From an uncultured Bacteroidota bacterium (lineage in GTDB: Bacteria > Bacteroidota > Bacteroidia > Chitinophagales > Chitinophagaceae): a stretch of DNA of 41,283 nucleotides. Under the pieces are notes generated by a model. It saw nothing but the letters and a program-made list of their open reading frames with translations, ran no database searches and was not told the origin of the DNA. Made by a program: the position numbers and the translations under genes. Below, one piece after another: positions 17,908 to 41,283 of this stretch (positions within the stretch are counted from its first letter, which is position 1; the number at the start of each line of letters is the position of its first letter). The stretch spans positions 1 to 41,283 of the forward strand of contig CAIQHJ010000080.1 of NCBI GenBank assembly GCA_903871575.1, written 5' to 3'.

Positions 17908-18244
17908 TGAATAAACATCAGTGAAAATATTTGGCTGTGTCATTGCTAGGGACGTAATATTGCAATATTGCATAATCCAAAATGCACGAAAGTCAGTGAT
18001 AGCAAGGGTTTTATACAAAACGGCCTAAAAATAACAGCAATTGAATAAACATTAGTGAAAATATTTGGCTGTGTCATTGCTAGGGACGTAATATTGCAAT
18101 ATTGCATAATCGAAAAAGGCGAAAGTTAGTGATAGCAAGGGTTTTATCCAAAATGACATAATAATAACAGCAATTGAATAAACATCAGTGAAAATATTTG
18201 GCTGTGTCATTGCTAGGGACGTAATATTGCAATATTGCATAATC
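17908..18244 (+). repeat. Non-coding tandem repeat cluster 1 (three 70-bp cores)
   Basis: Three cores at 17908-17977, 18042-18111 and 18175-18244, separated by 64 and 63 bp of related sequence (period 134 and 133 bp). Each core starts TGAATAAACATYAGTG and ends with TGCAATATTGCATAATC. Copies 1 and 3 are identical over the core, and copy 2 differs by one base. The right part contains overlapping palindromes (AATATTGCAATATT and TGCAATATTGCA). No ORF, tRNA or promoter consensus explains it. Related copies in the opposite orientation lie at 21570-21909, and a single variant lies at 27401. Apart from this cluster and the stretch before the next gene, I see nothing in 17900-18332. Confidence 0.9.
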
Positions 18245-18374
18245 GAAACAACAGATTTGAATCCCACAAAACCCTTCAAAGCAACTCGAAATCCCGTTTG
18301 TTCCTTTCTATATTGAGCATAAACCTAAACCCATTACCATCAATACGCAACTCAAAATATTTCTCAATAGAAAG

Positions 18375-19109
18375 GTGAATGAATATAACCAGCCTTTATT
18401 TATCGCATCTGATCCAATTTGCATTCCCCATGCATTTACCAAAAAACAAGACATAGAAATTGCAGGATTTTTTGCAGCCATTTTTTCCTGGGGCAATAGA
18501 ACTACCATTATAGCCAAATCAAAAGAGCTGATGCATTTAATGCATAACACGCCTCATGATTTTTGTTTACATCACACTGATGAAGATTTGAAAAAGTTAC
18601 TACATTTCAAACATCGCACTTTCAATGCAACCGATTTATTGTATTTCATTGAATTCTTCAAATTTCATTATAGTCAACACGAATCATTGGAAACCGCATT
18701 CACCAAGAGTATGAAAAAAAAGGACATCGACACTGAAAATGCTTTAAATGGATTTTACGATTATTTTTTCTCATTACCTGATGTGCCAAAGCGAACATTA
18801 AAACATATCGCATCACCACAAAAAAATTCTGGTTGTAAAAGAATCAACATGTATTTAAGGTGGATGGTTCGCAAAGACAAGCGTGGCGTTGATTTTGGTA
18901 TTTGGAATCAAATCAAACCTTCGCAATTGATTATTCCATTGGATTTGCATGTGGCAAGAGTAGCTGGAAAATTCAATCTTATACAAAGAAAAAAATTTGA
19001 TTGGCTAACCGCTGTTGAATTAACACAAACACTCAAATCATGGGATGATAAAGATCCTGTAAAATATGATTTTGCTCTTTTTGCATTGGGTGTGTTGGAA
19101 AAGTTTTAA
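18375..19109 (+). CDS. TIGR02757 family protein
   Basis: A conserved Bacteroidota protein of unknown function (TIGR02757/DUF2400). The signature KKQDIEIAGFFAAIFSWGNRTTIIAKSKELM is clear near the N-terminus, followed by KRINMYLRWMVRKDKRGVDFGIW and PLDLHVARVAGKF, a helix-rich pattern reminiscent of helix-hairpin-helix DNA-repair folds, though I cannot show a link. The GTG at 18375 is the first standard start, but the conserved N-terminus continues upstream in the same frame (reading LKIFLNRK from 18351). The true start may therefore be a rare ATT (18333) or ATC (18339), with the frame open back to a stop near 18256. It is the first gene of the block bracketed by inverted repeat clusters. Confidence 0.8.
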   Translation: MNEYNQPLFIASDPICIPHAFTKKQDIEIAGFFAAIFSWGNRTTIIAKSKELMHLMHNTPHDFCLHHTDEDLKKLLHFKHRTFNATDLLYFIEFFKFHYSQHESLETAFTKSMKKKDIDTENALNGFYDYFFSLPDVPKRTLKHIASPQKNSGCKRINMYLRWMVRKDKRGVDFGIWNQIKPSQLIIPLDLHVARVAGKFNLIQRKKFDWLTAVELTQTLKSWDDKDPVKYDFALFALGVLEKF

Positions 19110-19165
19110 ATTCAAGTTGCTTTAGCTGTATTTGCAGGGGTTCTTGTCAAATTTAAAATCATCTT

Positions 19166-19498
19166 ATGTCATTATTAGCATCCAAAGAAAACAACACAAC
19201 ACTAGAAAAGGTATTTTCTTGTAAGGATTTGGCTGTACTTGAAGATGCAGATGTATTGCAACAGTTGACAACATATATTAATCAACTCATTCTAACCAAT
19301 TTCGAATCGCTTGTACAACTGTTATATAGAATTGATGTAAGTGAAATGAAAATAAAAGCACTGCTCAAAGAAAATCCACAAGAGGATGCAGGGTTTCTCA
19401 TAGCCCAATTAATCATAGCCCGACAAATTCAAAAACTGAAAACCATCAAGGAAATGTTCGATACAACAGCGCCAGATGATGATGAAGAACGATGGTAG
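19166..19498 (+). CDS. Small conserved hypothetical protein (110 aa)
   Basis: A 110-residue acidic, helix-rich soluble protein ending in DDDEERW. I recognise it only as the kind of small conserved protein seen in Bacteroidota genomes, with no assigned function. It lies 56 bp after the TIGR02757 gene and 45 bp before the fumarylacetoacetase-family gene, all in the same direction. A near-consensus box TGTATTTG at 19127-19134, with TTT about 20 bp upstream, could give it its own promoter. Confidence 0.6.
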   Translation: MSLLASKENNTTLEKVFSCKDLAVLEDADVLQQLTTYINQLILTNFESLVQLLYRIDVSEMKIKALLKENPQEDAGFLIAQLIIARQIQKLKTIKEMFDTTAPDDDEERW

Positions 19499-19517
19499 TT
19501 TTTCCCAAGCTTTGCTT

Positions 19518-19525
19518 TACATTTG
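19518..19525 (+). promoter_or_regulatory. -7 box of the fumarylacetoacetase-family gene
   Basis: TACATTTG matches TAnnTTTG exactly and ends 18 bp before the ATG at 19544, giving a leader of roughly 12 nt. No clear TTG at standard spacing. Confidence 0.45.
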
Positions 19526-19543
19526 TGTTTCAACATTTAAGAT

Positions 19544-20551
19544 ATGAAACTGGTTACACATAGAAAAGATGGTCATGATCAACTAGCATTGGTTGTAGAC
19601 GGCAAGTTATATGACACAGATACATTACATCCCGATTTACCCATTAGCATGGCAATGTTTTTAAATTATTGGGATGATGTTTTACCATTGGCTTTATCTG
19701 CAGAGCAACAAATTAAAAGTGGCATTGCACGCTCTACCATGCCAACTGCTTTGCTTGAATCTAATTTATTGGCGCCCGTACCCCACCCCACAAGTTGTAG
19801 AGATGGCTATGCATTTCGTCAGCATGTAGCGGCTGCTCGAAGAAATCGAAAAGTTGATATGATACCCGAGTTTGATCAATATCCAATATTTTATTTTACC
19901 AATCACAATAGCATTCAAGGACCAGGTCCGATTCATTGTATGCCAGATCATTTTGAAAAACTTGATTTCGAATTAGAAGCAGCAATTGTTATAAATCGAC
20001 CGGGTAGAAACATACCAGCCAACCAAGCAGATGATTACATTGCAGGACTGATGATCATGAATGACATGAGTGCACGCAGATTGCAAATGGAAGAAATGCT
20101 ACTGAATCTTGGTCCAGCTAAAGGCAAAGATTTTTGTACGGTGATAGGTCCTATGTTGGTAACCTTAGATGAATTGGCTGCATACGAAATACCATGTAAA
20201 GAAGGGCATACCGGTAAAAGCTGGAATTTACCGATGAAATGCTGGGTGAATGGAATACAAGTGAGCGAGGGAAACCTTGGAGATATGGATTGGACATTTG
20301 CAGAAATTATTGAACGCTGCAGCTACGGCGTAGATTTATACGCAGGAGATGTAATTGGAAGCGGCACAGTAGGTACAGGTTGTTTTTTAGAATTAAATGG
20401 AACAGGGAAATTGCATAATCCCGATTATCAAGAGCAATGGTTGCAAGCCGGCGATCTAGTGGAAATGGAGATTGAAGGGTTGGGGAAACTTTCAAATACA
20501 ATTGTAAAGGAAGATTCAGATTTTTCGATATTGGCTTTGAAAAAAGTCTAA
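19544..20551 (+). CDS. Fumarylacetoacetate hydrolase family protein
   Basis: A 335-residue enzyme of the FAH superfamily, which cleaves or hydrates beta-diketo or related acids using a divalent metal. The metal-site acidic cluster FELEAAIVI is near 142-150 (E143, E145), and MNDMSARRLQMEE and GSGTVGTGCFLE are in the C-terminal half. Length and N-terminal domain suit a true fumarylacetoacetase-type protein of tyrosine/homogentisate catabolism, but the other genes of that pathway are not in the window. A flavin reductase gene follows 64 bp downstream, a pairing I have seen in homogentisate loci of this phylum. The exact substrate is inferred. Confidence 0.82.
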   Translation: MKLVTHRKDGHDQLALVVDGKLYDTDTLHPDLPISMAMFLNYWDDVLPLALSAEQQIKSGIARSTMPTALLESNLLAPVPHPTSCRDGYAFRQHVAAARRNRKVDMIPEFDQYPIFYFTNHNSIQGPGPIHCMPDHFEKLDFELEAAIVINRPGRNIPANQADDYIAGLMIMNDMSARRLQMEEMLLNLGPAKGKDFCTVIGPMLVTLDELAAYEIPCKEGHTGKSWNLPMKCWVNGIQVSEGNLGDMDWTFAEIIERCSYGVDLYAGDVIGSGTVGTGCFLELNGTGKLHNPDYQEQWLQAGDLVEMEIEGLGKLSNTIVKEDSDFSILALKKV

Positions 20552-20615
20552 TGGTTGCATTTAATTCATAAACCAGCAAATTGATTTAAATCTTTAATTA
20601 CAAACACCAAATAAA

Positions 20616-21506
20616 ATGGTATCAATCAAGCTGTCTGATCTCAGTGCTGCACAAAAACAAAATTATCTACAACACGCCATTGCACCGCGTCCCATTTGTT
20701 TTGCATCAACGATTGATAAAGACGGGCATGTAAATTTAAGCCCGTATAGTTTTTTTAATTTATTTTCTTCCAATCCTCCAATAGTTGTTTTCTCTCCCGC
20801 AAGAAGAGTAAGAGACAACAGCACAAAACACACACTTCAAAATGTAATGGAAGTGGCCGAAGTGGTTATCAATATTGTAGATTATGATATGGTGCAACAG
20901 ATGTCATTGACTTCTTGTGAGTATGATAAATTTACCAATGAATTTGAGAAAGCAGGTTTTACGGCTCAAAAAGCTACATTGGTTACACCCCCAATGGTTA
21001 AAGAAAGCAAGATAAAATTGGAATGTAAAGTCAATCAGGTGATACCCTTGGGAATGGAAGGAGGTGCTGGAAATTTGGTTATTGCAGAAGTGTTGATGAT
21101 TCATGTTGATGAATCTGTTTTGGATGAGGATAATAAAATTGATCAAACCAAATTGGACTTGGTTGCAAGGTTGGGGGCAAATTGGTACACAAGAGCAAAT
21201 GCACAAACCATTTTTGAAGTAGAAAAGCCCAATTTGAATTTAGGAATAGGCTTCGACCAGCTTCCAATTGCGATTAGAAATAGCACAATTTTAAGTGGGA
21301 ATGATTTGGCTAAACTAGCTAATGTTAGCGAGATACCGGCGATTGATAATACTTTTATAGATGAAAGAATGAAGCATATCATACAATACTATTCTATCAA
21401 TCCCGACGATATGGAAAAAGAGTTGCACCAATATGCAAAGGAGATGCTACAACATGGGAATGTAAATACAGCATGGCAAATTTTATTAACAGGGAATGAC
21501 AACTGA
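20616..21506 (+). CDS. Flavin reductase-like (FMN-binding split barrel) protein
   Basis: A 296-residue protein of the DIM6/NTAB flavin reductase family. The flavin-binding split barrel fills the first 200 residues, with the signature APRPICFASTIDKDGHVNLSPYSFFNLFSSNPP near 23-55. The remaining 90 residues are helical and not part of the core fold. It probably reduces FMN or binds it for a partner oxygenase in aromatic or tyrosine breakdown, which fits the neighbouring fumarylacetoacetase-family gene. The partner is not visible here. The inverted triplet of non-coding repeats starts 63 bp after its stop. Confidence 0.8.
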   Translation: MVSIKLSDLSAAQKQNYLQHAIAPRPICFASTIDKDGHVNLSPYSFFNLFSSNPPIVVFSPARRVRDNSTKHTLQNVMEVAEVVINIVDYDMVQQMSLTSCEYDKFTNEFEKAGFTAQKATLVTPPMVKESKIKLECKVNQVIPLGMEGGAGNLVIAEVLMIHVDESVLDEDNKIDQTKLDLVARLGANWYTRANAQTIFEVEKPNLNLGIGFDQLPIAIRNSTILSGNDLAKLANVSEIPAIDNTFIDERMKHIIQYYSINPDDMEKELHQYAKEMLQHGNVNTAWQILLTGNDN

Positions 21507-21569
21507 TTTTTTAGGATTGTATAAACGAGAATAAGTTGGGCGAAGGTGTGTTGTTATAAAAATGAATTC

Positions 21570-21909
21570 GATTATGCAATATTGTAATATTACGTCCATA
21601 GCATTGAAACTGCCAAATATTTTCACTAATGTTTATTCAACAACTACTTATAAGTTGATTTTGTAAGTCGAAATACCCGTTATTACTCACTTTCATTCAT
21701 TTTCGATTATGCAATATTGCAATATTACGTGTACGGCAATAACATAGCCAAATATTTTCACTAATGTTTATTCAATAACTATTTATAAGTTGATTTTCTA
21801 AGTCGAAATGCCCGTTATTACTGACTTTCATTCATTTTCGATTATGCAATATTGCAATATTACGTGTACAGCAATAACATAGCCAAATATTTTCACTAAT
21901 GTTTATTCA
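21570..21909 (-). repeat. Non-coding tandem repeat cluster 2 (three 70-bp cores, inverted)
   Basis: Three cores at 21570-21639, 21705-21774 and 21840-21909 with an exact period of 135 bp, in the opposite orientation to cluster 1. On the minus strand each begins TGAATAAACATTAGTG and ends ATTGCATAATC. The central 16 bases differ from cluster 1, and the first copy (21570) also differs there from its two neighbours. The 65-bp linkers are alike and share their first half with the cluster 1 linkers. No gene lies in 21507-22033. Besides this cluster the stretch holds only the lysS promoter. Confidence 0.9.
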
Positions 21910-22000
21910 ACCTCAACCGCTTTAATTTTCCAATTTAATCACCAACATCCAATCACACTCGCAACCCCTTTTCCAATTTTAATTAACGCCTTACTTCCTA

Positions 22001-22008
22001 TACCTTTG
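22001..22008 (+). promoter_or_regulatory. -7 box of lysS
   Basis: TACCTTTG matches TAnnTTTG exactly, with a TTT about 20 bp upstream as a possible -33 element. It lies 25 bp before the lysS ATG. Confidence 0.5.
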
Positions 22009-22033
22009 CCAAACAAAAAAAGACTTTAATAAA

Positions 22034-23554
22034 ATGAGTGAACAGCATTTATCTGAGCAGGAAATCATCAGAAGAGAGAAAAAAGCAGAATTGGAAAAAA
22101 TGGGAATCGATCCCTATCCTGCCGCACTATATCCTGTAAATACTTCCGCAGAATACATCAAATTAAATTACAAAGGCGAAGAAAATAAAGCTGATTTCGA
22201 AGACGTATGTTTGGCCGGCAGAATCATGAGTGTTCGCGATATGGGAAAAGCCAATTTCGCAGTGATGCAAGATGGTTCAGGAAAAATTCAATTCTATATC
22301 AAACAAGATGATATTTGTCCAGATGATGATAAATCATTGTTTCAACAGGTTTGGAAAAAATTGGTAGACATTGGCGATTTTGTTGGTATAAAAGGATATG
22401 TATTCACTACCAAAACCGGTGAGACTTCTGTTCATGTAAGAGAATTTACCATACTAAGCAAATCACTTCGTCCACTACCTATTGTTAAGGAAAAAGACGG
22501 AGAAGCTTTTGATGAGGTAACCGATCCAGAATTTAGATACAGACAACGATATGCAGATTTAATTGTAAATCCGGGTGTAAAAGAAGTGTTTGTAAAGAGA
22601 ACAAAATTTGTCAATGCCATTCGTTCGTTTTTAAATGAACGTGGTGCTTTGGAAGTAGATACTCCAGTATTGCAAAGTATTCCTGGAGGCGCTGCTGCTC
22701 GACCTTTTACAACACACCACAATGCATTGGATGTGCCAATGTACATGCGAATTGCCAATGAGTTGTATTTGAAAAGATTGATTGTGGGTGGTTTTGAATG
22801 GGTGTATGAGTTCAGTAGAAATTTCAGAAATGAAGGCATGGACAGAACACACAATCCCGAATTCACCGTGTTGGAGTTTTATGTAGCGTATAAAGATTAT
22901 GAATGGATGATGGATACCACTGAACAAATGCTCGAAAAAGCTGCCATCGCTGTAAATGGAACTGCTACATGCTTGGTAGGTGACAAAGAAATCAGCTTTA
23001 AAGCGCCATTCAAAAGAGTAACCATGTTTGATGCCATCAAAGAACATACAGGTTTTGATATCAGCAGCATGGATGAAGATGGTATCAGAGCCGTATGCCA
23101 ACAGTTAGGTATACACGCAGATGCGAAATGGGGAAAAGGAAAATTAATCGATGAAATCTTCGGAGAAAAATGCGAAGGTCATTATATTCAACCTACTTTT
23201 ATTACCGACTATCCGGTTGAAATGAGTCCCTTAACTAAAAAACATCGCAGCAAACCAGGATTGGTAGAGCGTTTCGAATTGATGGTAAATGGCAAAGAAA
23301 TCGCCAACGCATACAGCGAATTGAATGACCCAATAGAACAAAGAGCACGTTTTGAAGAGCAAGTAAAATTAATGGAAAGAGGAGATGACGAAGCGATGTT
23401 TATTGATCATGACTTCTTGCGCGCACTTGAATATGGTATGCCACCAACCAGCGGAATTGGTTTCGGAATAGATAGAATTTGCATGTTGCTGACTAACCAA
23501 CACAGCATTCAGGATGTATTGTTCTTTCCAATGATGAGGCCAGAGAATATTTAA
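22034..23554 (+). CDS. lysS: Lysyl-tRNA synthetase, class II
   Basis: A 506-residue cytoplasmic enzyme that charges tRNA-Lys. The N-terminal OB-fold anticodon-binding domain is at about 50-150 ([30 protein letters not shown]). The class II catalytic core follows, with motif 2 [20 protein letters not shown] near 260-280 and motif 3 [11 protein letters not shown] near 480-490, and the ending LFFPMMRPE is typical. Length is normal for bacterial LysRS. It has its own good promoter and a strong downstream palindrome that probably terminates it. The inverted repeat cluster 2 ends 124 bp upstream. Confidence 0.97.
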
Positions 23555-23752
23555 TTTTTTTCACCGAAAAGGAAAAGAGTCGCTGATTTTACCAAGCTTA
23601 TACATTTCCAGTATCCAGCATCCAGCATCCATCTCATCTCATATAAACATTTGCAAATATGGCGTATACATGATGGAAGTAAGAATGGGAGATAAGATGA
23701 AAACAATCAGAACAGTAAAAATTTAATTAGCTAAAAAATAAATTTTTATTCG

Positions 23753-23780
23753 ATTGCCCACGGTTTAAACTGTGGGCAAT
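23753..23780 (+). terminator. Long palindromic hairpin followed by T run
   Basis: ATTGCCCAC at 23753-23761 pairs with GTGGGCAAT at 23772-23780, and the centre GTTTAAAC is itself a palindrome, so almost 28 bases are self-complementary with one G-T pair. GTTTTTATTTTT follows, so it should act as a terminator for lysS, about 200 nt after its stop. The flanking A/T tracts suggest it could work in both directions. No gene is supported in the 198 bp between lysS and the hairpin. Confidence 0.7.
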
Positions 23781-23821
23781 GTTTTTATTTTTATCTTATC
23801 TTACGCTTCAAATATTTTCAT

Positions 23822-25957
23822 ATGCAAAAACAATTCCTTTCAGCAATCCTCATCATTATTGCAACTTCGGTATTCGCTCAAAAAACACCCCTAACCAATG
23901 ACCAATATTTTAAAAATAATTTCAAGGGAATTATAAATCCCTTACCTCAATCGATTACATGGTTGGATGATGCTACATTCGTGATGACAAAAAACGGCAC
24001 CAAAATAATGGTTGATGCAAAGTCGGGAAAGGAAGGACCTGTACCTCAGGGATTTGAAATGCCAAAACAAACGGCTCCTGAAGCTGCTTATACCAAAGGG
24101 AATGATCTATTTATTAAATTAAATGGAGCAGAACTACAACTTACCAACGATGAAACCAAGGAAGTAAACCCGACCATGAGTCCGGATAATAACTATGTAG
24201 CCTACACGAAGAACAATGATTTATACAGTCTGGAAATTTCAACTAAAAAAGAGAATAGATTAACCAATGATGGAAGTGATGTGATATTGAATGGTTATGC
24301 AAGTTGGGTTTACATGGAAGAAATTTTGGGACGTTCATCACAATACCGCGCTTTTTGGTGGAGCCCAGATAGTAAACAAATCGCTTTTTTTAGATCCAAC
24401 GATGCTAACGTTCCAGCGTATATTATTACCGATGCGCCTGGTCAGCATGGTGTGGTAGATAAAACAAGATATCCAAAAGTAGGCGATCCAAATCCGGAAG
24501 TAAAAGTTGGAATGGTATCACCAAATGGAGGAGAAATTGTTTGGGCTGATTTTAATGAAAAGAATGATCAATATTTTGGATTGCCTTATTGGAAGCCTGA
24601 TGGTAAAACATTGTTGGTTCAATGGATGAATCGCTTGCAAAATGAGTTGAATATTTTTGAAGTAAATCCAATCACTGGAAAGAAAACTGAATTTTTAAAA
24701 GAGACCCAAAAAACATGGATAAGCTTGGATGATGAAGGGAAGCGAATCACGTTTTTAAATAATGGAAAAGGATTTATTTACAGAAGCGATGCCAGTGGAT
24801 ATGAGCAGTTGTACCACTACGATATGACCGGGAAGTTGATTAATGCTATAACTACAGGAAAATATACAGTTACAGATATTAATTTTGTTGATGAAAAAAA
24901 CAGCTTAATATATTTTTCAGCTAGAAAAGAAAACACCGCACGCAAAGATTTATATGTTGTTAATTTCAACGGAAAAAAATTGCAACGATTAACATTCGGT
25001 GAATATAATCATGCTACAATCAGCCTTTCTCCATCGGCAAACTATTTCACCACCACATATAACAATGCAACAACACCATCCAAAATAACGTTGGTATCCA
25101 ACAAAGGAAAAATAATCAAAGATTTAGGCGACACTAAAGGAGAAGCTTTAGAAAAAACAGAAATCGCGAAAACAGAATTACTTCGTGTAATGAGTGACGA
25201 TAGTTTGTATAGTTTACCCATGAAAATTACTTGGCCAACCAATATGGTTCCAGGGAAAAAATACCCAGTATTGATTTCTATATATGGCGGTCCAAATGCA
25301 GGAACGGTAATGGATACTTGGTCATTGTCGGGCACTCAACAATGGTACGCAAAAGAAGGATTGATACAAGTAGCGATGGACCATAGAGCAAGCGGGCATT
25401 TCGGAAAAGAAGGCGTGAATTATATGTACCACAATCTCGGTTACTGGGAAATAAAAGATTATTCCACAATTGTAAAATGGCTAGTTGCTAACGGTCAGGC
25501 AGACCCATCTAAAATTTGTATTACAGGGTTTAGCTATGGCGGATACATGAGTTGTTATGCACTCACATATGGCGCAGATGTATTTACACATGGAATGGCT
25601 GGCGGAAGTGTGATTGATTGGACTTTATACGATTCACATTATACAGAGCGCTTCATGGGAACGCCTTCAAATAATGCAGAAGGATATAAAACAAGTTCCG
25701 TACTCACGCATGCAAACAAATACAAAGGCATGTTGCAAATTGTGCATGGTATTGCTGACGAAAACGTTCATCTCCAAAATAGCATTCAACTAACAAGTAA
25801 ATTACAAGACCTCAAAAAAGATTTCGAATACATGACATATAGTGGAGGAAGACATGGATGGGGCGGAAACAAAGGATTACATTTTCAGAATCTAAAAACT
25901 AAATTTATTTATCAGTACCTGTTGGAAAAAGCTGTTCCAAAAGAAATGTTGAAATAA
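23822..25957 (+). CDS. Dipeptidyl peptidase IV (S9B prolyl oligopeptidase family)
   Basis: A 711-residue exported serine peptidase that removes Xaa-Pro dipeptides from N-termini, probably periplasmic. The signal peptide MQKQFLSAILIIIATSVFAQ is clear. Residues 40-450 are a beta-propeller domain with the Glu pair of DPP-IV (WVYMEEILGR, E166-E167) that binds the substrate amino end. The alpha/beta hydrolase domain has the catalytic serine in GFSYGGYMS (S571), the aspartate in GIADENVHLQNS (D646) and the histidine in GGRHGWGG (H678). All key residues are present. It stands alone downstream of the lysS terminator and is 4 bp from a convergent gene. Confidence 0.92.
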   Translation: MQKQFLSAILIIIATSVFAQKTPLTNDQYFKNNFKGIINPLPQSITWLDDATFVMTKNGTKIMVDAKSGKEGPVPQGFEMPKQTAPEAAYTKGNDLFIKLNGAELQLTNDETKEVNPTMSPDNNYVAYTKNNDLYSLEISTKKENRLTNDGSDVILNGYASWVYMEEILGRSSQYRAFWWSPDSKQIAFFRSNDANVPAYIITDAPGQHGVVDKTRYPKVGDPNPEVKVGMVSPNGGEIVWADFNEKNDQYFGLPYWKPDGKTLLVQWMNRLQNELNIFEVNPITGKKTEFLKETQKTWISLDDEGKRITFLNNGKGFIYRSDASGYEQLYHYDMTGKLINAITTGKYTVTDINFVDEKNSLIYFSARKENTARKDLYVVNFNGKKLQRLTFGEYNHATISLSPSANYFTTTYNNATTPSKITLVSNKGKIIKDLGDTKGEALEKTEIAKTELLRVMSDDSLYSLPMKITWPTNMVPGKKYPVLISIYGGPNAGTVMDTWSLSGTQQWYAKEGLIQVAMDHRASGHFGKEGVNYMYHNLGYWEIKDYSTIVKWLVANGQADPSKICITGFSYGGYMSCYALTYGADVFTHGMAGGSVIDWTLYDSHYTERFMGTPSNNAEGYKTSSVLTHANKYKGMLQIVHGIADENVHLQNSIQLTSKLQDLKKDFEYMTYSGGRHGWGGNKGLHFQNLKTKFIYQYLLEKAVPKEMLK

Positions 25958-25961
25958 TTTT

Positions 25962-26315
25962 CTAAAGAAAATAACTGGAAAAAACGGCTTCGTCAAAACC
26001 AACTATGACCACATCTCCATATTCAATAACAGGGCGCTTAATAATACTTTTATGTTGGAGCATGATGTCTATTGCTAATTTTGTATTTATGGCAATACCT
26101 TCATAATCTGCTGCAATTTTTTTCCAGGTTGTCCCTTTCTTGTTTAACAAAATTTCCCAACCAACTGCTTTGCACCATGCTTGCAGTTGGTTTTTTTCAA
26201 TACCCTTTTTTTTATAATCGTGGAAAGTATAATCGATTTGATTTAATGTAAACCAGTTCAACGATTTTTTGATGCTGTCACAATTGGCGATGCCGTAAAT
26301 AATAATTTCACTCAT
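25962..26315 (-). CDS. ArsC/Spx/YffB-like thioredoxin-fold protein
   Basis: A 117-residue protein of the arsenate reductase ArsC family, nearest to YffB/Spx-like members. It starts YGIANCDSIKKSLNWF, where the cysteine sits in the position of the ArsC catalytic cysteine. Later IIKRPVIEYGD and GFDEA match the family C-terminus. Arsenate reduction is not established for this subgroup, and no ars genes adjoin. It begins 1 bp after the stop of the aldo/keto reductase gene, so the two form an operon, which may hint at a redox role. Confidence 0.8.
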   Translation of the reverse strand: MSEIIIYGIANCDSIKKSLNWFTLNQIDYTFHDYKKKGIEKNQLQAWCKAVGWEILLNKKGTTWKKIAADYEGIAINTKLAIDIMLQHKSIIKRPVIEYGDVVIVGFDEAVFSSYFL

Positions 26316-26316
26316 A

Positions 26317-27306
26317 TCAATAGTCGGGTAATGTTGGTTTGTTTTTCATGATCTCGTCAATTTTCGTCATGATTTCTGGTGTTAGCAGTTTCACTACTTC
26401 AAGGGATTTGAGATTGTCGAGCAACTGCTGTTTTTTAGTTGCACCTAAAATAGCTGTGCTCACATTGGGATTTTTGATACACCAAGCAATACTTAAAGAT
26501 GCCGTCGAGACGCCCAATTTCCCTGCTAAATCTGTAATCTTTTTTACTTTTTTAATATTGTCATCCAACACCCAACGATCTTTTAACCAATCAAATCCCT
26601 CCAAAGCAAATCGACTATTTTTTGGAATACCATCATTGTATTTTCCACTAAGCAAGCCAGAAGCCAACGGACTCCAGATGGTTGTGCCCAATCCCACCGT
26701 TCTAAAAATGTCGAGATATTCTTTTTCCATTTTCTGACGCTCAAACATGTTGTATTGAGGTTGTTCAGTAGTTGGCCCAATTAATCGGTATTCAGCAGCA
26801 ATTCTATGTGCTTCCATAATTTCAACACCGCTCCATTCACTCGTACCCCAATACAAAACTTTTCCTTGTTGTATGAGTGTATTCATGGCTAACACCGTTT
26901 CAAGAATTGGAGTTCCTTTATCTGGCCGATGACATAAATACAAATCTAAATAATCCACTTGTAGTCTTATTAAAGCTTCGTTGCAAGCTTCTATAACATG
27001 CTTTCTGCTCAGTCCGGTTTGATTGGGCTTATTGTTGGCACCTCTCCATCCCCAAAATACTTTTGATGAAACCAAATAAGAAGAACGGTCCCATTTTTTC
27101 TTTTTTATAACACGACCCATCATTTTTTCACTTTCACCCAAAGCGTAAATTTCTGCATTGTCGAAAAAGTTGATTCCGTTGTCATAAGCCAAGCCCATCA
27201 ACTCGTCGGCAACTTTATCATTGATTTGTTTACTGAAGCTAACCCAGCTTCCAAAAGAAAGCGTACTTACTTGTAGGCCGGATTTTCCTAGGCGACGATA
27301 TTCCAT
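26317..27306 (-). CDS. Aldo/keto reductase (Kv-beta-like)
   Basis: A 329-residue NADPH-dependent TIM-barrel oxidoreductase. The catalytic tetrad is visible: D49 and Y54 in FFDNAEIYALGESE, K82 in VSSKVFWG and H126 in LYLCHRPD. The sequence (RRLGKSGLQVSTLSFGSW at the start, TTIWSPLASGLLSGKYNDG in the middle) fits the branch related to potassium-channel beta subunits and YghZ. The physiological substrate is unknown. It leads a two-gene operon with the ArsC-like protein. A near-consensus -7 box (minus strand TATCTTCG, 27327-27334) lies upstream, and the single copy of the dispersed repeat lies at 27401. Confidence 0.9.
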   Translation of the reverse strand: MEYRRLGKSGLQVSTLSFGSWVSFSKQINDKVADELMGLAYDNGINFFDNAEIYALGESEKMMGRVIKKKKWDRSSYLVSSKVFWGWRGANNKPNQTGLSRKHVIEACNEALIRLQVDYLDLYLCHRPDKGTPILETVLAMNTLIQQGKVLYWGTSEWSGVEIMEAHRIAAEYRLIGPTTEQPQYNMFERQKMEKEYLDIFRTVGLGTTIWSPLASGLLSGKYNDGIPKNSRFALEGFDWLKDRWVLDDNIKKVKKITDLAGKLGVSTASLSIAWCIKNPNVSTAILGATKKQQLLDNLKSLEVVKLLTPEIMTKIDEIMKNKPTLPDY

Positions 27307-27400
27307 AATTGAAAATTTTTAGGATACGAAGATATAGAATGCATAGAGAAATTGGTGGTGGAAATTGTATGATTGAAAATGAATAAATATAAACGTAGAC

Positions 27401-27478
27401 TGAATAAAGTTTAGTGGAAAAATTAGGCTGTGAGTTGTCGGTGGACGTAATATTGCAATTATGCAATATTGCATAATC
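27401..27478 (+). repeat. Single variant copy of the dispersed core repeat (78 bp)
   Basis: Starts TGAATAAAGTTTAGTG and ends ATTGCATAATC like the cores at 17.9 and 21.6 kb, but is 78 rather than 70 bp because of an 8-bp expansion in the right part. The expansion creates a perfect 20-bp palindrome, ATTATGCAATATTGCATAAT, at 27458-27477. It lies between the divergent aldo/keto reductase and ArsR-type genes, 20 bp before the latter's ATG. Confidence 0.85.
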
Positions 27479-27498: not shown

Positions 27499-27834
27499 AT
27501 GGGAGCCTCAAAAAAACAATTCTTCCCCCCAAATCAAAACGCCATCGCCACACTTTGCAACGCCCTTGGCCATCCAGCCAGAGTTGCAATCATCGAACAC
27601 TTACTCATCAACAAAGTATGCATCTGTGAAGATATGCTAAGCATCCTTCCATTAACAAGACCAACCATCTGGCAACACTTACAAAAACTAGAACGTGCGC
27701 AACTCATCCAAGGAAACTTTAAAAACAATAGTTTGGTGTATGAAATTGACAGCATCAACCTGAACAATGTAGACGCCTATTTTTCTCATTGGAAAATTGA
27801 AAAACAAAAAAAATTACTTGCAAGAAATCATTGA
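27499..27834 (+). CDS. ArsR-family winged-helix regulator
   Basis: A 111-residue DNA-binding protein. LCNALGHPARVAIIEHLLINKVCICEDMLSILPLTRPTIWQHLQKLERAQLIQG is the full winged HTH of the ArsR type. The VCICED stretch resembles the ELCVCDL metal site of ArsR/SmtB proteins, but with a single CxC, so metal sensing is only possible. I start at the ATG at 27499 (MGASKKQFF), because the upstream extension to 27469 runs into the repeat. It is divergent from the aldo/keto reductase-ArsC-like operon and could control it, with the palindromic repeat between them. That is inference. Confidence 0.85.
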   Translation: MGASKKQFFPPNQNAIATLCNALGHPARVAIIEHLLINKVCICEDMLSILPLTRPTIWQHLQKLERAQLIQGNFKNNSLVYEIDSINLNNVDAYFSHWKIEKQKKLLARNH

Positions 27835-38310: not shown

Positions 38311-41283
38311 TTGAAACAAGGCTACTTATTTATTTTATTGGTTTTTTTTGCAGCGCAAGCCTGGGCAGGTATCGCTATGCCTTCAAATCTGTTGTCTTTG
38401 TCTACATATGATACAATTCCCCAACAACAACGAGTTGATATAAAAAATACAATTCAACAGTTTCAAGCCAATGTAAACAGGGCTGCTCCTTGCGGCATTT
38501 TAATTGACCCAACATTTCCTGCATTTCCAAGTGTTTGTAAAGGATCACCGGCACCAGCTTTGCCTCTAATTTCTACCAATGGTATCACCGGTACTTGGTC
38601 GCCCGCAGCCATCAACAACTTGCAAACCGCAACCTATGTTTTTACACCAGATGCCAACCAATGTGCCAATAGTTTTTCAATTGTCATAACAGTCATTGAG
38701 CCACCCATTACCTACCCGCGTCGTACCAATCCTACCTGTTCAAACAATTGCAATGGCAATGCCTCAGTAGACGTTGTTGGCGGATTGCCTCCTTACAGTT
38801 TTGCTTGGAGCAATGGAGGCGCTACACAAACCATTACGAATCTTTGTATAGGTACATACACCGTTGTAGTTACAGACGCCAATGGTTGCAGCTCAAATGC
38901 TTTCACACCGGTTACGACTAGTTGCTTTCAAATACAAAGTATTTTGGTAGATGGCTGTTCGCCAAATGAATGGGAAGAAGAGATGGTGTTTTTTCAAATC
39001 GGTCAATCACCCATCAATACGTCGAGTTTAAATGTAACTTGGCCAACTTTCACCTCATCGGGAGGCACAACAGACCCATGGAATGGGCTTTGTCAAAATC
39101 CAACTTTCATTGCCAATGTAAATGCTACCATAACTGGCGGCGGCCTGTTGATTCCTGTTCCTGCTGGCGGTACAATTCCTGCCAATGCGAATGCTGTTTT
39201 AATTACAACCAATACAACAACAGCCAGTACAACCAGTTTTGCAAATTTGTCCGATACATTATATGTGTTGTTTCAATGTGCTGGAAATTCAGTAGGTCAT
39301 TTTGGAAATACCGCAGCCACTATCCGAACATTGATGATGAGTTTTGGTGCAGGATGTACACAATCAGTAAACTACATTCCCAATAGTCTTCCTGGTGGCA
39401 ACGGCGCCTATGTTAACTATGATGTAAATGGAACACCAACCTACTTAAACTATGGATGTAACATTCCAAATAGTATTCAAGGAAATCAGGCCATATTAAC
39501 GGCACCTGCGCCAACCGCGCCATCTTTCGACAGCATTCCACCAGTTTGTAGAGGAACAGTGCCACCACCGTTACAATTGCCTTCCATCAACACACCACCC
39601 ATTACAGGTACTTGGTCGCCGGCAGTTATCAATACCACAAATGCAGGAACGTATAATTATATTTTCACGCCTTCAATTGGAACTTGTGCAACAACAAAAA
39701 TCTTGCGCATAACCATTATGCCATATACCAGAACCAGCACCACAAGGATAGCTTGTGACTCAACCATTTGGAACGGAACGACCTACACTTCGAGCGGCAC
39801 CTATGTCCGCAATTACAACAATGCAGCCGGATGTCCATCTGCCGATACTTTGCGACTCACCATAAACAATTCCGTTATCAATAGCACAACAATTGATATT
39901 TGTCAGAACCAGCTACCATACATATGGAATGGCCAACCTTACAATACAACAGGCGTTTACTCGGATACGTTATCAACCGTATTTGGTTGTGATTCTATTT
40001 TGAAATTAATATTAAATGTGCACCCAACGTACAACGTAAATGTGGCTGCTTATACCTGCAATGGAGTGTCCTACAACTTGCCATGGGGAGGCACCGCATC
40101 CACCGCAGGCGTTTACACACATACTTATAATTCCGTTTTTGGGTGCGACAGTACCGTAAATATCAACTTGACATTCAGCAATATTGATGCGAATGCAGAT
40201 GTCATTATTTGTAATGGAAACAATACACAACTCAATGCTACGGGATCAGCAGGCCTAACATACAATTGGTTTCCAACCAATGGATTATCTAACCCAAACA
40301 TTTCTAATCCGGTGGCATCTCCATCGGCCACTACCACCTATCGAGTAACAAGTCAAATCAGGTTGAACAATCTGATTGAGAATGGTGATTTTTCGCAAGG
40401 GTTTTCAAATTTTTCATCTGGGTATAGCTTCATACCATTTAGTATACCAAATACTACAGAGGGAGAATGTACAGTTGGCAATACACCTATCTCCTGGAAT
40501 CCCGGCTTTTTTCCTTGTAGTGATCATACCACGGGTAACGGAAATATGTTTTTGGTAAATGGATCACCTATTCCCAACGAAAGTATTTATTGTCAAACCA
40601 TTAATGTTACACAAAACACCACATATGCATTTAGTTCATGGTTGATGAACCTCAATTCAGTAAATCCTGCAATACTTCAGTTTTCTATAAACAATGTTTT
40701 GCTGGGATCTACATTTTCTTCAACAGGAACTTGCAATTGGGAAGAATTTTTTAGCACTTGGAACTCGGGTAATAACACCACTGCAGAGATTTGTATTGTT
40801 AATCAAAATACACAAATCAGTGGCAATGATTTTGCCTTGGATGAATTAAGCTTTACTGCATTGTGCACAGTAACAGATTCGGTAACGGTAACTGTATTGC
40901 CTACTTATACCAATTCGATTAACGCCACTATTTGTCAAGGTCAACAGTATGCATTGCCTTGGGGCGGAACGGCAACAACAACAGGTGTTTATACACACAA
41001 TTATTTTACAGTAGACGGTTGCGATAGTGTGCTCAATATTTCATTAACGGTAAATGCGGTGGGTAATCAATCAACCAATATTACCAACTGCGAAAACTAC
41101 ACTTGGAATGGAACGACTTATACTTCGAGTGGCAATTATTTATACAACTACACCAACGGAAACGGATGCGCATCAACTGATACGCTGCATTTGATTGTCA
41201 ATTATGGAACACATAATTCGTTTAACCAAACTCAATGTGAAAGCTATACTTGGAATGGAACGACTTACACTTCGAGTGGCAAT
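38311..41283 (+). CDS. Large repetitive secreted protein, SprB repeat (3' end off the window)
   Basis: An open frame of 991 codons to the window edge. It starts at a TTG (38311), because a stop lies at 38266 and no ATG precedes the signal peptide LKQGYLFILLVFFAAQAWAG. Domains visible: paired ITGTWSPA modules near 91 and 431; an SprB-type repeat near 142-193 (GGLPPYSFAWSNGGATQTIT, VVVTDANGC); a cysteine-containing domain near 210-390; short repeats of the WNGTTYTSSG...GC type at 487, 932 and 981, with related LPWGGTA...GVYTH modules near 590 and 883; a galactose-binding-like domain near 688-850 (LIENGDFSQGF). Gliding or adhesion proteins of this build are exported by the type IX system through a C-terminal signal, which would lie beyond the window. 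Confidence 0.8.
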   Translation, partial: MKQGYLFILLVFFAAQAWAGIAMPSNLLSLSTYDTIPQQQRVDIKNTIQQFQANVNRAAPCGILIDPTFPAFPSVCKGSPAPALPLISTNGITGTWSPAAINNLQTATYVFTPDANQCANSFSIVITVIEPPITYPRRTNPTCSNNCNGNASVDVVGGLPPYSFAWSNGGATQTITNLCIGTYTVVVTDANGCSSNAFTPVTTSCFQIQSILVDGCSPNEWEEEMVFFQIGQSPINTSSLNVTWPTFTSSGGTTDPWNGLCQNPTFIANVNATITGGGLLIPVPAGGTIPANANAVLITTNTTTASTTSFANLSDTLYVLFQCAGNSVGHFGNTAATIRTLMMSFGAGCTQSVNYIPNSLPGGNGAYVNYDVNGTPTYLNYGCNIPNSIQGNQAILTAPAPTAPSFDSIPPVCRGTVPPPLQLPSINTPPITGTWSPAVINTTNAGTYNYIFTPSIGTCATTKILRITIMPYTRTSTTRIACDSTIWNGTTYTSSGTYVRNYNNAAGCPSADTLRLTINNSVINSTTIDICQNQLPYIWNGQPYNTTGVYSDTLSTVFGCDSILKLILNVHPTYNVNVAAYTCNGVSYNLPWGGTASTAGVYTHTYNSVFGCDSTVNINLTFSNIDANADVIICNGNNTQLNATGSAGLTYNWFPTNGLSNPNISNPVASPSATTTYRVTSQIRLNNLIENGDFSQGFSNFSSGYSFIPFSIPNTTEGECTVGNTPISWNPGFFPCSDHTTGNGNMFLVNGSPIPNESIYCQTINVTQNTTYAFSSWLMNLNSVNPAILQFSINNVLLGSTFSSTGTCNWEEFFSTWNSGNNTTAEICIVNQNTQISGNDFALDELSFTALCTVTDSVTVTVLPTYTNSINATICQGQQYALPWGGTATTTGVYTHNYFTVDGCDSVLNISLTVNAVGNQSTNITNCENYTWNGTTYTSSGNYLYNYTNGNGCASTDTLHLIVNYGTHNSFNQTQCESYTWNGTTYTSSGN

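Follow-up and report, generated by a model that had tools for sequence, protein, structure and literature searches.

ArsR/SmtB promoter-operators consist of a short dyad that overlaps a promoter just before the repressor gene. To our knowledge, the origins of bacterial dispersed repeats other than the repetitive extragenic palindromic (REP)/REP-associated tyrosine transposase (RAYT) type are often unknown. BrickBuilt of Porphyromonas gingivalis is the nearest Bacteroidota case we found, and is described in its abstract as tandem 23-nt repeats with a leader and a tail, present in 19 copies in one strain (PMC4596501). Here we analyse a 41,283-nt contig (CAIQHJ010000080.1 of assembly GCA_903871575.1, hereafter the window) from an uncultured Chitinophagaceae bacterium, in which an intergenic element, E, occurs in seven copies, one of them directly ahead of a gene for an ArsR-type repressor that we call ArsR-E.

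E resembles ArsR/SmtB promoter-operators in the arrangement given above and shares sequence with the family's canonical arsR loci; it differs from them in occurring in dozens of copies per genome, in having a dyad extended into 8-bp iterations and in being paired with a repressor that lacks most of the conserved cysteines. Like E, BrickBuilt is an intergenic Bacteroidota element with tandem repeats and promoter elements, but it has small inverted-repeat ends, is called a miniature inverted-repeat transposable element (MITE) and has a unit of 23 nt rather than the 20 of E; no connection with the operator of a repressor is mentioned in its abstract (PMC4596501). The REP GTAG/CGTC families, as presented in PMC3733652, are likewise palindromic, extragenic and dispersed, and those of the CGTC type also have no dedicated transposase. 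E departs from them in having no tag, in being a longer, polar element with promoter spacing, and in forming same-orientation tandems where REPs are mostly head-to-head dimers (PMC3733652). We propose, with a probability of roughly two in three, that E is the promoter-operator of the autoregulator ArsR-E, copied to many intergenic places.

All seven copies lie at the positions that an earlier sequence-only reading had given, six as cores of exactly 70 bp and one as a 78-bp version (Table 1), and each begins TGAATAAA and finishes ATTGCATAATC. Their number far exceeds chance: the 25-bp 3' end, with up to three mismatches, matched six times in the window (the longer-tailed copy at 27401 not being among these matches) and never in 100 dinucleotide shuffles. 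To that description we add the upstream 20-bp boxes, a promoter-like spacing, a variable palindromic tail, and the ArsR-type gene behind the 27401 copy, the 3' end of which is 20 bp upstream of the start codon (27499).

E begins with 20-bp boxes and passes through TTTG and a spacer of constant length to TAATATTG and then CGTAATATTGCRAT, which leads into the variable palindrome. Of the 108 copies whose left end is complete, 95 keep TTTG together with the -7 block, the spacer being 21 bp in 93 and 22 bp in 2, with some variation in the -7 block itself. The primary-sigma promoter of Bacteroidota has TTTG around -33 and TAnnTTTG at -7, according to the consensus in PMC7366714; TAATATTG departs from the latter by one mismatch, and E fits this layout. 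Judged by sequence, E thus carries the layout of a Bacteroidota housekeeping promoter overlapped by CGTAATATTGCRAT.

The exact 14-mer CGTAATATTGCRAT is present at six of the seven copies in the window. Of 24 canonical arsR loci from six genera (76 kb), 21 contain it a single time, near the start codon; 23 lysS loci (103 kb) do not contain it at all. Twenty-three of the 24 canonical-locus genomes have no dispersed E, and one of the loci, L348, is a second arsR of the E-bearing genome G102. In five other genera and in congeners without E, ATCGTAATATTGCRAT or similar precedes canonical arsR. All 23 readable canonical loci (one of the 24 is masked upstream) have a laxer form of the motif no more than 75 bp from the start codon, and 13 of these have TTTG 18-21 bp ahead of it, against 3.3% of shuffles (distances of 17-22 bp tested). 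Furthermore, across 298 genomes sampled from the order, the sole E-profile match outside the genus (27 bits, L323) directly precedes an arsR gene. The dyad sequence is therefore common to E and to the arsR promoters of its relatives, as an ArsR operator should be, and we treat the 14-mer as a predicted ArsR operator. Among the four identities offered by the sequence-only reading, a protein-binding site fares best, given the operator-like 3' half and the promoter spacing, with binding itself being predicted from sequence; its role may conceivably be a chromosome-structuring one.

The same loci bear on the order of events. A mobile element with its own promoter could have landed before the arsR of the subclade ancestor and replaced its promoter, so that arsR-E borrowed E; full E, with boxes and a long tail, was indeed found only in one subclade. 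However, congeners without E, and other genera too, have the 14-mer ahead of arsR, accompanied by the promoter spacing at 13 of 23 loci. The 3' half of E, along with its spacing in about half the loci, is therefore part of an arsR promoter older than E, and we consider the borrowing of E very improbable.

The gene at L323 belongs to the same family as the one behind the 27401 copy. In a search for ArsR in 80 chosen genomes, 58 had a match and 30 loci were returned (a G198 locus, with ATCGCAATATTGCAATAT before the start, stands outside all counts). ArsR-E was found in five genomes (G000, which is the genome of the window, G095, G091, G097 and G012), where the proteins form one clade with support 100/99 and E is always oriented into the gene. 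Canonical ArsR sequences have CxC in 24 of 24, CYC in 23 of 24 and a C-terminal CC in 21 of 24. ArsR-E has lost the CYC and C-terminal CC cysteines in all five cases; CxC is kept in G000 and G012, and in the other three its second cysteine is gone (CxA), so that four or five of the six conserved cysteines are missing. These cysteines we take to be the metal sensor, and the PLAQPTVSQHLKEL region presumably the recognition helix. This region is altered as well, to PLSRPTIWQHLQEL or similar, with SQH changed to WQH in 5/5. ArsR-E hence seems, from its residues, to have been stripped of most of the metal-sensing parts of an arsenic-type repressor. A methyltransferase gene lies behind canonical arsR in the two loci examined, and the one also scanned with NCBIfam is an arsenite methyltransferase; the genes following ArsR-E in three loci encode proteins of the DUF2721, PKD/CHU_C and SOUL types.

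ArsR-E is present in five of the six genomes holding at least 18 copies of E. Copy numbers are 18-43 in the five ArsR-E genomes and 25, 10, 6, 6, 3, 1, 1, 1 and 0 (twelve times) in 20 others (Mann-Whitney p 6e-4 over 25 genomes, uncorrected for relatedness). These 25 were chosen because their lysS is roughly 90% identical or closer, or because they bear E; G084 and G040 (90%) were left out. ArsR-E is counted as absent where nothing matched at 1e-8 or where the best match fell below 46% identity. The low matches read individually were L348, L349 and L352, and a strongly diverged ArsR-E may escape detection.

The anatomy of E was drawn from 110 copies in eight genomes. Its 5' part has one to four direct 20-bp boxes, each TGAAKAAANTTYAGTGG plus three free bases (four consecutive boxes in L040), the last of which merges into AAATATTTGGCTRT. 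There follows a segment variable in sequence and constant in length, then CGTAATATTRC, and finally a tail of 8-bp iterations, AATATTGC or GATATTGC. The tail is a perfect 44-bp palindrome in some copies of G097 and G102. In the 104 copies where arms could be measured (six were dropped, the left arm falling outside the search string), the median arm is 14 and 18 bp in G097 and G102, respectively, compared with 7 in G000. As single-stranded DNA, two long-tailed copies fold far better than shuffles (z -5.5 and -5.8), with the 27401 copy intermediate (z -2.5); the hairpin of one 70-bp window copy is not above chance (z -0.07). The consensus RNA fold of E is empty and Rfam gave no match at gathering score in the window, leaving the earlier suggestion of a small RNA family without support.

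Copies were located by BLAST of the own genome and by a sequence profile built from 33 copies. G000 (Chitinophagaceae; 2.3 Mb in 279 contigs, 95% complete) yielded 42 profile matches at an E-value of 0.1 or below (37 of them scoring at least 44 bits) and 39 at 0.01 or below, or about 37-39 copies, with matches at contig ends possibly counting one copy twice (C89/C126; C189/C98). At 0.01 or below, 13 of 93 genomes of the genus matched, G000 included. Three of these (G064, G082 and G096) have one weak match each that is unlike E by eye. True holders thus number 10 of 93, with 3-43 copies: G091 43, G000 39, G097 28, G102 25, G095 19, G012 18, G011 10, G049 6, G005 6 and G098 3. In the order sample, which contained few congeners, G000 and the one genome of another genus were the only ones to match at 0.001 or below. 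The test set by the sequence-only reading (refutation by absence elsewhere or by membership of a catalogued family) did not refute it: the core recurs in its own genome and in relatives. The eight E-bearing genomes with a lysS match have at least 92% lysS identity to G000 and are intermingled with E-free genomes; G005 and G102 gave no lysS match. An exact-pattern scan of GTDB r220 contigs returned 64 stretches, all but those of one genome in metagenome-assembled genomes (MAGs) titled Chitinophagaceae. The exceptional MAG (CALPIT0200000xx contigs; L152, L155, L161 and others) is titled 'Streptomyces griseus' (HRS-ES1-bin-403), a title that is almost surely wrong. Two collections of phage and plasmid records contained no E match and viral contigs no exact-pattern match, and a phage or plasmid origin was rejected on these grounds.

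Placement was analysed in the loci that were fetched, a subset of all copies, with genes called crudely as longest open reading frames. The 73 E-bearing gaps comprise 33 convergent, 33 co-directional and 7 divergent ones (binomial p 4e-5), and the ratio of convergent to divergent is still 25:5 when G097 and G102, some of whose loci have orthologues among those of G091, are set aside. We prefer the ratio of 33 to 7 as the measure of placement; E-free control gaps are biased because a gap adjoining a convergent gap cannot itself be convergent. Tandem copies within any listed array are all co-oriented, and this single orientation per array may point to local duplication after arrival. In the window, arrays of opposite orientation stand 3.3 kb apart, and a polar chromosome motif was rejected on this ground.

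Occupancy turns over among relatives. The array in the lysS gap is found only in G000 among 18 genomes, the window's metC gap is E-free in G091, and of 35 places in five relatives that correspond by orthology to eleven G091 loci, at least 10 carry E, a lower bound because contigs end near some places and the box of L265 is cut by an insert, X (Table 1). Places common even to the distant G000 are arsR, L040/L093/L122 and L019/L092/L260. Orthologous cores are 0.90 identical compared with 0.84 for their flanks (aligned with free end gaps and possibly including gene ends), the core being higher in 17 of 23 pairs; this is weak evidence for constraint.

Such dispersed, intergenic and patchy occurrence, with the turnover, the convergent-gap enrichment and the same-orientation tandems, would suit an ordinary selfish non-autonomous element, MITE-like or REP-like, moved by an undetected transposase in trans, its likeness to arsR being due to chance or to a functionless captured promoter. 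The MITE-like or REP-like identity suggested by the sequence-only reading fits this behaviour only. By eye, TGAATAAACATC at the 5' end is unlike GATTATGCAATA, the reverse-complemented 3' end, so that E has no terminal inverted repeats. No constant target-site duplication was seen by eye, the flanks being diverged and without a clean empty site. The exact 20-bp box pattern, scanned in four genomes, revealed no parent transposon with E ends: of 14 places, 13 are at E by coordinates and one is solitary, which argues against a selfish element. This solitary 17-bp box, TGAAGAAAATTCAGTGG in L295 (G097:C242:3179-3195), has no E core and lies, by eye, upstream of the start of a cysteine desulfurase-like gene.

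The search for a driver was equally negative. Within a single genome, no protein family was seen next to E at more than two loci. As a check on the earlier statement that no transposase is near, 19 distinct window genes were examined; no transposase family was among their hits, 6 of the 19 having no family match at all. The REP GTAG/CGTC tag, as defined in PMC3733652, is absent from E, the hairpin of which starts CGTAATATTGC. Among 28 Y1 matches in nine E-bearing genomes, 22 were scanned with their flanks, and only one stretch holds an E, about 2.6 kb off; REP/RAYT was rejected, as neither the two Y1 genes of G000 nor the 20 scanned in relatives have an E at their ends. Y1 is present in 82 of 93 genomes, some of them E-free; the E-bearing G098 has none. 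Y2 transposase gave no match in G000, G091, G097, G102, G095, G012, G011 or G005 and is present in G049 and G098; an IS91/Helitron-type driver was rejected because the six copy-richest genomes have no Y2. Given these results, and an arsR match across genera that chance does not explain, we regard a purely selfish element as rather unlikely.

We therefore return to E as the multiplied promoter-operator of ArsR-E, for which the following course is envisaged. Ancestrally, a single 14-mer dyad would have stood in the arsR promoter across the family. In the E-bearing subclade the 14-mer is extended into the palindromic tail, with 20-bp boxes upstream, and ArsR-E has lost most of its conserved cysteines, the presumed metal sensor, and altered its presumed recognition helix. 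ArsR-E probably binds E: its dimers would occupy the tail of each copy, both before the arsR-E gene and at the dispersed sites, and shut off the promoter present there. Silencing of this kind would, we propose, allow copies to be tolerated, for the most part near the ends of genes. More tentatively, ArsR-E may have left metal sensing altogether and taken on the sole role of binding the genome-wide set of operators multiplied from its own, the pair co-evolving either in nucleoid-type bridging or as a self-silencing selfish repeat with a silencer born of the same promoter.

Several observations weigh against this proposal. The main difficulty is that E occurs without a detected ArsR-E in G102, G011, G005, G049 and G098, including G102 with 25 copies (79% complete) and G011 with 10 (99% complete). 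The ArsR-E branches are long, as in a fast-evolving clade. TTTG is missing at the correct distance in 10 of the 23 canonical arsR loci, and the window's own arsR-preceding copy has TTAG in its place. No driver for the copying of E emerged from the Y1, Y2 and linked-gene tests. Finally, the gene on the downstream side is opposed in 58 of the 94 copies with both neighbours. This last count, together with the turnover of occupancy, also tells against a true regulon in which each copy controls its neighbour under ArsR-E. Some copies do lie right before co-oriented genes, for example 11 bp from a 435-aa open frame in L041, and the core is mildly more conserved than its flanks, but we judge such a regulon improbable.

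Table 1. Features of the window and copies of the insert X; positions are those of the window unless a locus is named.
Feature	Position	Strand	Remarks
E copy 1, three-copy tandem array	17908..17977	+	TTTG 17930-17933; operator-like CGTAATATTGCAAT 17953-17966
Spacer, copies 1/2	17978..18041	.	Resembles spacer of copies 2/3; degenerate box-like stretch by eye
E copy 2	18042..18111	+	Operator-like 14-mer starts 18087
Spacer, copies 2/3	18112..18174	.	
E copy 3	18175..18244	+	Operator-like 14-mer starts 18220
E copy, lysS-upstream array	21570..21639	-	Sole window copy without exact 14-mer; carries CGTAATATTACAAT
E copy, lysS-upstream array	21705..21774	-	
E copy, lysS-upstream array	21840..21909	-	Locus E-free in 17/17 relatives keeping the same upstream gene
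Degenerate upstream box TGAATAAATATAAACGTAGAC of arsR-preceding copy	27380..27400	+	
E copy before ArsR gene, 78 bp	27401..27478	+	Box 27401-27417
TTAG at -33 place, same copy	27423-27426	+	
-7-like TAATATTG, same copy	27448-27455	+	
Perfect 20-bp palindrome, same copy	27458-27477	+	
ArsR-E gene, ArsR/SmtB-type	27499..27834	+	111 aa; diverged; 4/6 conserved cysteines lost
X copy	L133:1663-1765		
X copy	L107:1391-1493		
X copy	L132:1406-1508		
X copy	L265:57-108		Cut by contig end
X copy	L096:2937-3039		
X copy	L150:1815-1916		

Divergent from ArsR-E, with E between, the window encodes an ArsC-family protein and an aldo-keto reductase-like protein (25962-27306, minus strand); PF03960 (ArsC family) presumably also takes in proteins other than arsenate reductases. 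At 39754-41283 a 48-nt repeat occurs three times, the last copy reaching the contig end, perhaps within a repetitive surface protein. X is a MITE-like sequence of about 103 bp with ends TACC...GGTA, flanked by TTA/TTA or TAA/TAA in four copies and imperfectly in L107. Six distinct copies were found, of which four share one position within the upstream box of an E, TGAAGAAANTT(T)A or similar (G091, G102), in a search over loci mostly selected for carrying E. In L125-L129 and L150 (G095, G049) E is embedded in a larger dispersed repeat, some 360-430 bp long and bearing CCTGTTTTCC...GGAAAACAGG arms; L125 has two such units, 360 bp apart. The Y1 transposase genes of G000 have palindromes of their own: L060 (1966-2083) holds two CACCGTTTAAATGGTG palindromes, and L061 (2027-2041) holds TGTTCC-N-GGAACA, also found twice near an E in L048 (2089-2230). 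Both sets look like REP/RAYT-type pairs unrelated to E.

In the literature covered (titles and abstract openings, with few subscription papers) we found no description of E or of an ArsR operator that has become a repeat family. In kind, E is a dispersed intergenic repeat with regulatory content, with BrickBuilt as its nearest Bacteroidota counterpart; what seems new is the link of a repeat to the operator of one repressor and to the change in that repressor. Its hosts are some freshwater bacteria, in which a switch is copied to dozens of intergenic places. The likely source of the repeat is visible here, as a single arsR dyad in the relatives and as a multiplied form in one subclade beside a changed repressor. 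The case thereby makes it testable how a transcription-factor site may turn into a repeat family, and whether the factor itself shifts from a sensor to a binder of dispersed sites.

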